A stretch of DNA of 64,000 bases, from assembly GCA_014654035.1 (NCBI GenBank), contig JACWDQ010000004.1, forward strand, positions 1-64,000. The letters run 5' to 3'. Under the pieces are notes generated by a model. It had not been told where the DNA came from. It saw nothing but the letters and a program-made list of their open reading frames with translations, and did not search any database. This document shows, piece after piece, positions 13,621-15,778 of this stretch. The number at the start of each line of letters is the position of its first letter. Within the stretch, counting starts at the first letter, position 1. Origin of the DNA: Pelagibacterales bacterium SAG-MED19 (GTDB taxonomy: Bacteria; Pseudomonadota; Alphaproteobacteria; Pelagibacterales; Pelagibacteraceae). Both the position numbers and the translations under genes were made by a program.

Positions 13621-13638
13621 ACTATTGTGAATTGTGGA

Positions 13639-13653
13639 GAACTTTTGTAGAAC
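13639..13653 (+). promoter_or_regulatory. SOS (LexA) box upstream of lexA
   Basis: GAAC, seven bases, GAAC (GAAC at 13639-13642 and 13650-13653). This direct repeat is the established LexA operator form in Alphaproteobacteria (GTTC-N7-GTTC and equivalents). It ends 24 bases before the lexA ATG, as expected for autorepression. A second, imperfect copy (GTAC-N7-GTTC, 13661-13675) follows and ends 2 bases before the start codon. Confidence 0.8.
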
Positions 13654-13677
13654 AGATTTTGTACGATATTTGTTCTT

Positions 13678-14355
13678 ATGCTAACAAAAAAACAAAAAAA
13701 CCTGCTTTTATTTATCAACAAGAAGTTGAGAAGCTCTGGCGTATCTCCTTCTTATGAAGAAATGAAAGAGTCGCTAAATTTAAAGTCTAAGTCAGGAATT
13801 CATAGATTAATCAGTGCATTAGAAGAAAGAGGATTTATTAAAAGACTTGCTCATAAAGCAAGAGCATTAGAAGTGATTAAATTGCCAGAAACAGCTTCAG
13901 CAAACGATATTTACAACAGTTTTTCACCGAGTGTTATTAAGGGTGGTTTAGACGAAGATAAACCTATGTCTGATGACATAGAAGTGCCTGTTTTAGGAAA
14001 AATAGCCGCTGGAACTCCTGTGGAAGCTATTCAAAATGAGGTTTCAAGAATTCCATTGCCTAGTAACTTAGAAAAAAATGGTGATTATTTTGGTCTTAAA
14101 GTCCAAGGTGACTCGATGATTGAAGCTGGGATTAACGAAGGTGATACTGTTATAATTAAACGAACAGACACTGCTGACAATGGAAAAATAGTTGTTGCTC
14201 TAATTGATGAGCATGAGGCTATGCTCAAAAGAATTAGAAAAAAAGGTAAAGTGGTAGCACTTGAAAGTGCAAATAAAAACTACGAAACTAAAATATTTGG
14301 CCCAGATAGAGTTAAAGTGCAGGGCGTATTGGTATCTTTATATAGAAACTTCTAG
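13678..14355 (+). CDS. lexA: LexA repressor
   Basis: SOS repressor and self-cleaving protease. 225 residues. The N-terminal winged helix-turn-helix spans about residues 1-65 (SGVSPSYEEMKESLNLKSKS). The linker carries the Ala111-Gly112 cleavage bond (IAAGTPVEA). The S24 peptidase domain has Ser146 (GDSMIEAGI) and the general base Lys184 (AMLKRIRKKG). The start follows two LexA-type operator sequences. The downstream gene gltX starts 22 bases away and may share the transcript. Confidence 0.96.
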   Translation: MLTKKQKNLLLFINKKLRSSGVSPSYEEMKESLNLKSKSGIHRLISALEERGFIKRLAHKARALEVIKLPETASANDIYNSFSPSVIKGGLDEDKPMSDDIEVPVLGKIAAGTPVEAIQNEVSRIPLPSNLEKNGDYFGLKVQGDSMIEAGINEGDTVIIKRTDTADNGKIVVALIDEHEAMLKRIRKKGKVVALESANKNYETKIFGPDRVKVQGVLVSLYRNF

Positions 14356-14377
14356 TAAAATAGTCTAAACATTTTCA

Positions 14378-15778
14378 ATGAAAAAAGTAGCAACAAGATT
14401 TGCTCCATCCCCTACTGGACCTTTGCATATTGGAGGTGTAAGAACAGCTTTGTTTAATTGGTTATATTCTAAAAATCAAAAAGGTGATTTTTATCTAAGA
14501 GTTGAAGATACTGATAAAGAAAGATCAAAAGACAAATATAAAGATCAAATAGTTAAATCCCTTAAATGGATTGGTATTAACTATGATGGAGAAGAGTATA
14601 TACAATCAAAAAAAATTGAAGATCACATAAAAGTTGCAAGTGAATTACTTAAAAATGGTCATGCATACAAATGTTATTGCTCAAGTGAAGAAGTAGAGGA
14701 ACAAAAAAAAAGAGCAAGACAGAAAAAAATTCCTTATATCTATGATAGAAAATGGAGAGATAAGAAAGAAACTGATGCCCCAAAAGATATTAAACCAGTT
14801 ATAAGGTTTAAAAGTAAAATAGATGGAACATCAGTGTTAAAAGATTTGGTCCAAGGTGATGTTGAAATAGATAATAATACTATAGAAGATTTTATTATTT
14901 TAAGAAATGATGGAACTCCAACATACAACTTATCCGCATCTGTGGATGACCATCAAATGAATATGACGCACATAATTAGAGGTGATGACCATAAGATAAA
15001 TACCTTCAAACAAATACAAATTTATCAAGCTATGAAATGGGAATTACCATCTTTTGCGCATATACCTTTAATACATACAATTGAAGGAAAGAAATTATCA
15101 AAGAGAGATAAGGCATCTACGTTAGATGATTACTCTAAAATTGGTATTATGCCAGATGCTCTAAGGAATTATCTTCTTAGATTAGGATGGTCTTATAAAG
15201 ATAAAGAAATTTTCACTCTTGATGAAAGTATTAAGCATTTTAATCTCGAAGGAATTGGAAAATCTCCATCTAAGTTAGATATGAGTAGAATTTTATCAAT
15301 GAATGAACACTATATTAAGAATATTGATGAAAACGATTTATTCAATCAACTAACCGGGTATTGTAAATTGTATAAAAGTGAAATTAAATCACATAAAAAA
15401 GATAGGATTAAAAAATCCCTTACTTTCCTAAAAAATAAAGCTAAAACCTTGGAAGATATATTTAATAATGGTCAATATATAATGGTGGATGAGGTTAACT
15501 TTGATCAAAATGACATTAAATTAATAGATAATAAAGCTAAAAAAGTCATTTCTGATTTCAATAATCAATTTGGTAGTGTTGATAAACTAAGTAAAGAAAC
15601 ATTAGAACCTATAGTAAACGAATTAATTAAGTCAAATGACACTAATTTTAAAGGAGTTGGACAACCTTTGAGAATAGCTTTAACAGGCTCAAAATTTGGA
15701 CCTGGAATATATGATATAATTATTTCACTTGGAAAAGAAGAAGTAGCAAAAAGATTAACCAATAAGAAACTTAGTTAA
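14378..15778 (+). CDS. gltX: Glutamyl-tRNA synthetase
   Basis: Charges tRNA-Glu (possibly also tRNA-Gln where GlnRS is absent). 466 residues, class I synthetase. The N-terminal nucleotide-binding motif is FAPSPTGPLHIGG (HIGH box), then GDFYLRVEDTDKERS, a zinc-region remnant around CYCSSEE, IRGDDH, and KLSKRDKAST as the KMSKS loop. The C-terminal anticodon-binding part is helical. Its last 24 bases overlap the end of the convergent lpxB. Confidence 0.96.
   Translation: MKKVATRFAPSPTGPLHIGGVRTALFNWLYSKNQKGDFYLRVEDTDKERSKDKYKDQIVKSLKWIGINYDGEEYIQSKKIEDHIKVASELLKNGHAYKCYCSSEEVEEQKKRARQKKIPYIYDRKWRDKKETDAPKDIKPVIRFKSKIDGTSVLKDLVQGDVEIDNNTIEDFIILRNDGTPTYNLSASVDDHQMNMTHIIRGDDHKINTFKQIQIYQAMKWELPSFAHIPLIHTIEGKKLSKRDKASTLDDYSKIGIMPDALRNYLLRLGWSYKDKEIFTLDESIKHFNLEGIGKSPSKLDMSRILSMNEHYIKNIDENDLFNQLTGYCKLYKSEIKSHKKDRIKKSLTFLKNKAKTLEDIFNNGQYIMVDEVNFDQNDIKLIDNKAKKVISDFNNQFGSVDKLSKETLEPIVNELIKSNDTNFKGVGQPLRIALTGSKFGPGIYDIIISLGKEEVAKRLTNKKLS

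Follow-up and report, generated by a model that had tools for sequence, protein, structure and literature searches.

A probable two-operator autorepression promoter with an imperfect, reverse-oriented second LexA box at lexA in SAR11 bacteria

The lexA promoter region

The stretch of DNA analysed here (the window; 64,000 nt of contig JACWDQ010000004.1 from Pelagibacterales bacterium SAG-MED19) carries a lexA gene, with gltX following on the same strand and two LexA operator-like boxes lying directly upstream (Table 1). The lexA product matches the LexA equivalog model TIGR00498 over its full length (166.6 bits, cut-off 110.95) as well as the domain families PF01726 (LexA_DNA_bind, 52.9 bits) and PF00717 (Peptidase_S24, 104 bits). 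Residues A111-G112, S146 and K184 are invariant when the protein is aligned to LexA of E. coli, and we take them to be the Ala-Gly cleavage pair and the Ser/Lys dyad, respectively.

Table 1. Features of the lexA region, with positions numbered as in the window
Feature	Positions	Strand	Basis or remark
Predicted -35 element, TTGTGA	13625-13630	+	conserved TTG position
Box 1, LexA operator GAAC-N7-GAAC (exact)	13639-13653	+	sequence, conservation
Predicted -10 element, TAGAAC	13648-13653	+	part of box 1 (second half-site); -35/-10 spacer 17 bp
Third register, GAAC-N7-GTAC	13650-13664	+	requires a 22-bp distance between the boxes; matrix score 2.3
Predicted untranslated leader, almost wholly box 2	13660-13677	+	sequence and promoter geometry
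Box 2, putative imperfect reverse-oriented LexA operator	13661-13675	-	sequence, conservation
lexA	13678-14355	+	225 aa; LexA DNA-binding domain and S24 peptidase domain
gltX (glutamate-tRNA ligase)	14378-15778	+	22 bp 3' of lexA, same strand

Re-reading of the sequence placed both boxes exactly where a preliminary description of this DNA had located them. Box 1, GAACTTTTGTAGAAC, is an exact GAAC-N7-GAAC and as such identical to the alphaproteobacterial LexA box GTTC-N7-GTTC of Caulobacter, Rhodobacter and Rhizobium, a kind of motif that, according to the accessible part of the study by Janky and van Helden (PMC2248561), was found in 24 of 26 lexA promoters from Alphaproteobacteria. Box 2, GTACGATATTTGTTC, reads GTAC-N7-GTTC on the plus strand and GAAC-N7-GTAC on the minus strand, hence deviates from the exact motif by one mismatch (GTAC for GTTC), and is separated from the lexA ATG by the two bases (TT) that had been claimed. 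As this mismatch is fixed in SAR11 in the form of either GTAC or GTTT, we refer to box 2 as an imperfect, operator-like variant. The four half-sites begin at 13639, 13650, 13661 and 13672 and thus form an 11-bp grid, absent from the preliminary description, which creates a third, overlapping site with one mismatch (the third register of Table 1) whose half-site pair is the same as that of the recA box.

The mere occurrence of such motifs carries little information. The window holds one exact GAAC-N7-GAAC (0.73 expected) and 27 sites with at most one mismatch (27.0 expected), and the genome of SAG-MED19 (1,012,823 bases in 50 contigs, 84% complete) has 13 exact sites as compared to 17 for the pattern read backwards. 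With site counts at chance level, the case for the boxes rests on their position and conservation, both of which are strong. In a matrix built on 58 alphaproteobacterial box 1 sites, the sites of this genome score 19.9 (umuD), 18.6 (box 1), 16.4 (ribonucleotide reductase), 12.2 (box 2), 6.9 (recA) and 2.3 (the third, middle register). Box 2 thereby ranks fifth among all positions of the window, so that the matrix alone would not suffice to pick it, and the low score of the recA box marks the matrix as a poor guide to half-site variants.

The boxes are framed by promoter-like elements at conserved distances. A TTG starts exactly 14 bp 5' of box 1 in all 109 distinct promoters of the genus, in all 17 of the other genera of the family, in all 19 of a sister family and in 40 of 58 promoters of other Alphaproteobacteria, where 10 more have it at -15; the hexamer TAGAAC at the end of box 1 is present in 109/109, 17/17, 19/19 and 52/58 promoters of the same four groups. 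From this geometry, transcription is predicted to start near 13660, about 7 nt past the -10 element, in which case box 2 would extend across the start site and almost all of the leader. No Shine-Dalgarno sequence is evident in the predicted leader. It was the conserved geometry by which the promoter was placed; a simple promoter scan with a 9-of-12 rule did not pick it up. This rule demands a T as the last base of the -10 element, which TAGAAC lacks. The same simple scan found no terminator 3' of trpC, and an Rfam search of three loci returned no matches.

Conservation of the boxes in SAR11 and other Alphaproteobacteria

The named LexA relatives at 95-99% identity, of which 80 loci were kept, all come from Pelagibacteraceae and Candidatus Pelagibacter records, which places the window in SAR11. 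Since some anonymous genomes and named records probably represent one and the same assembly, distinct sequences were counted as well. In the genus, both boxes are present at 116 of the 117 lexA loci, with 79 distinct last-60 sequences, and in other genera of the family at 17 of 18; the two loci without them are contig ends that lack the upstream DNA. The second, related element is consequently conserved among relatives, and the loss of both boxes in close relatives, which the preliminary description had named as the observation that would speak against its proposal, was not what we found. Within a single genus, part of such conservation merely reflects close kinship. The upstream half of box 2 is GTAC in all 116 two-box loci of the genus, whereas in the other genera it is GTAC in 12 and GTTT in 5 of 17 loci; GTTC never occurs at this place in these loci. 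While the GTAC or GTTT and the TTTGTTC of box 2 stay constant, its four inner bases vary (GATA, TTAA, ACAA, GTAA, GAGG, AGGA and others). Likewise, the linker between the boxes is shortened from 7 to 6 bp in 14 of the 116 loci of the genus and in 13 of the 17 from other genera with both boxes intact, giving centre-to-centre distances of 22 or 21 bp. Box 2 ends 1-2 nt before the ATG in these loci, a single reading of 0 being due to an alignment start that is one base off. In the sister family, the exact box 1 is kept and a second box within one mismatch is found in none of 19 promoters.

Beyond SAR11, 115 genomes were drawn from the class, of which 90 gave a LexA match (the genome of SAG-MED19 and one other SAR11 genome included), and 68 upstream regions of other Alphaproteobacteria were taken from the best-scoring LexA matches. 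Of these 68 regions, 58 contain an exact box 1, and in 46 of the 58 a second box with no more than one mismatch lies within 45 bp of it, as opposed to 1.7 expected from mononucleotide shuffles; under the same rule, the remaining 12 promoters have none. The second box is in reverse orientation in all 46 cases and lies 24-26 bp from box 1, centre to centre, in 34 of them. Its upstream half is GTTT in 30, GTTG in 11, GTTC in 2, ATTC in 2 and TTTC in 1 of the 46 promoters, and the three bases 5' of its GTTC, which played no part in the selection rule, are T in 46, 43 and 42 of the 46. Its distance to the start codon is 12-149 nt (median 35, n=46), compared to the 1-2 nt in SAR11, from which it follows that the SAR11 leader is much shorter, having shrunk to the point where the putative operator adjoins the start codon. 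Across the promoters compared, the second box thus emerges as an ancient feature of lexA promoters in Alphaproteobacteria that is reversed and as a rule imperfect, with GTAC as its SAR11 form. Since it is common to most of the distant relatives, nearly always imperfect and always in the same orientation, box 2 appears to be a genuine component of the lexA switch rather than a chance match.

The candidate SOS regulon

The genome-wide search for the motif that the preliminary description had recommended shows that 3 of the 13 exact sites in the genome of SAG-MED19 are intergenic, namely those at lexA, umuD and a ribonucleotide reductase gene (Pfam Ribonuc_red_lgC), and that the other 10 lie within reading frames. 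A similar picture emerges from one complete genome, in which 14 of 20 GAAC-N7-GWAC sites fall within reading frames that encode 100 aa or more and the other six belong to umuD, recA, the reductase and the three registers at lexA. At recA, the box GAACAAAATGTGTAC is present in 27 of 30 loci and the variant GAACAAAATGAGTAC in one, the remaining two being cut at contig ends; the recA box and box 2 of lexA have the GTAC half-site in common, and the strong half of box 2, GAACAAA, is identical in the recA and umuD boxes. An exact box precedes umuD in all 20 loci examined. In the genus, with 14 loci compared, it directly adjoins the ATG in 8, whereas 4 nt separate the two in the remaining 6. In all 23 loci, the reductase gene is preceded at a distance of 93-111 nt by GTTCTATAAATGTTC or a closely similar site, within an intergenic region common to a divergent 482-aa gene. 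The reductase is a likely further SOS target.

The SOS regulon of these bacteria likely comprises lexA, recA, umuD(C) and a ribonucleotide reductase. In the accessible part of a recent study (PMC12753301), recA, lexA, umuD and umuC are described as a complete SOS response system of Candidatus Pelagibacter communis HTCC1062, and lexA, recA, umuD, umuC and nrdAB are reported to rise together during infection by phage HTVC027P. This induction fits the gene set proposed here, although LexA dependence lies outside what the accessible text demonstrates and the operators are not described in it. The conserved boxes at recA, umuD and the reductase, together with the reported induction, bear out the earlier suggestion that an SOS circuit is retained in this reduced genome, and they provide a concrete and small SOS regulon for one of the most abundant bacterial groups of the ocean, consistent with the published transcriptome of phage-infected cells.

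Several minor observations can be added. In SAG-MED19, the umuD box (G000:C45:7961-7975) is followed by the ATG with zero bases in between and thus represents a second case of a very short leader filled by an operator. The reductase box is exact in this genome (G000:C1:91831-91845), and its distance to the start codon varies among relatives. Most recA promoters of the sister family have an extra exact GAAC-N7-GAAC about 66 bp 5' of the GTAC-type box, which is not found in the genus of the window. Across 10 SAR11 genomes, the pattern GAACAAANNNNGWAC has 28 matches and its reversed form 16; the 28 comprise 10 at recA, 10 at umuD (one of them assigned from its location next to recA on a contig edge), 6 at box 2 of lexA and 2 elsewhere. 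Sites outside the three SOS genes are hence rare (2 versus 16 for the reversed pattern), and it is possible that stray LexA sites are avoided or that this is only an effect of base composition.

The role of the second box

The sequences of the two boxes, their conservation, the orientation bias of the second, their spacing and their framing by promoter elements make it likely that the lexA intergenic region is a two-operator autorepression promoter, with box 2 as a reverse-oriented operator to which LexA would bind with lower affinity. The weaker binding is suggested by the mismatch in combination with the matrix scores (12.2 for box 2 versus 18.6 for box 1). LexA on box 1 would block the -10 element; box 2 sits about two helical turns further downstream, and LexA bound there would cover the predicted start region and the leader. 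At high LexA levels, occupation of both boxes would shut off lexA transcription, which would resume once LexA is removed by RecA-stimulated self-cleavage. We infer that the paired boxes would give the tight autorepression that the preliminary description had envisaged. That description had further considered direct interference with ribosome binding in case of a short transcript. The promoter geometry indeed predicts a leader of about 17-18 nt; LexA, however, binds double-stranded DNA, which makes direct competition with ribosomes unlikely, and as box 2 extends over the region where transcription is predicted to start and over the leader, an effect on transcription initiation is to be expected instead. 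The idea of a direct interference thus found no support.

Three other explanations have to be weighed against a LexA-bound box 2. One could argue that the box is a chance near-match that is conserved only through the short leader as a whole or through the close kinship of the genomes, as one-mismatch sites occur at chance frequency and nearly the entire leader is invariant in the main clade. Across genera, however, inner bases and linker change while the half-sites of both boxes stay, and a second box, always reversed, recurs in 46 of the 58 distant alphaproteobacterial promoters, whose leaders differ, so that we consider this explanation highly unlikely. The box could also be real and serve translation start, an RNA structure or another regulator instead of LexA, which would suit an element that fills the leader beside the ATG where a Shine-Dalgarno sequence is not evident. 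The variable distance to the start codon in other Alphaproteobacteria shows that the box does not follow the ATG, and with its strong half GAACAAA being common to the recA and umuD boxes, a function other than LexA binding appears very improbable to us.

Lastly, the middle register could be the true second site, with one dimer alternating between box 1 and this site; it has the recA-type pair of half-sites and sits on the same 11-bp grid. The 6-bp linker, however, turns its spacing into N6 and the GTTT variant destroys its half-site, both leaving box 2 as it is. Its matrix score is also far below those of box 1 and box 2, with the reservation that the recA box itself reaches only 6.9. We therefore give this possibility very little weight.

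A LexA-bound pair of boxes invites comparison with E. coli, where lexA likewise has two LexA operators, 21 bp apart as measured on NC_000913.3, compared to 21 or 22 bp in SAR11. As far as the accessible part of PMC7440846 goes, the E. coli operators lie near the start site, one of them over the -10 region, and are equal in repression; in SAR11, the start site is a predicted one, the boxes are opposed, and the predicted leader is taken up by the second box, which is imperfect. Both pairs thus consist of two operators about 21 bp apart near a start site, whereas the motifs differ, as E. coli has the CTGT-N8-ACAG type and the CTG-N10-CAG of its double operator is found in neither of the SAR11 boxes (GAAC-N7-GAAC and GTAC-N7-GTTC). 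By analogy, the SAR11 pair would work like the E. coli double operator and is not a member of that type. The two helical turns between the box centres would allow dimer-dimer contact. According to the same accessible text, there is no evidence for cooperativity between the E. coli lexA operators, and their double operator has no measurable effect compared to one strong operator, so that cooperation between the SAR11 boxes cannot be assumed.

Whereas the two-operator arrangement at lexA is known from E. coli and the GAAC-N7-GAAC motif from Alphaproteobacteria, the second, reverse and imperfect box is apparently new: the accessible text of PMC2248561 does not mention a reverse-oriented GTTT, GTTG or GTAC box, and searches of open-access papers brought up no description of a second box in alphaproteobacterial lexA promoters, which is weak evidence of absence since subscription papers may contain one. 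One could speculate, with the arguments for and against being evenly balanced in our view, that alphaproteobacterial lexA promoters have an ancient pair of opposed operators, the second of which is kept imperfect by selection (with GTTT or GTTG as upstream half in most of them and GTAC in most SAR11 genera) as a set-point of autorepression that arose independently of that in E. coli. Genome streamlining in SAR11 would then have made this operator into almost the entire 5' leader of the mRNA. Even for E. coli, what the double operator does at lexA is described as unclear (PMC7440846, accessible part). SAR11 would add a second case that is apparently independent; with its unrelated motif and the conserved asymmetry between a strong and a weak site, it offers a natural comparison for the purpose of the second operator.

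The reach of the promoter could also extend beyond lexA. With a gap of only 22 bp between lexA and gltX (14356-14377) and one orientation for both genes, a common transcript is possible, and gltX may hence be damage-inducible.
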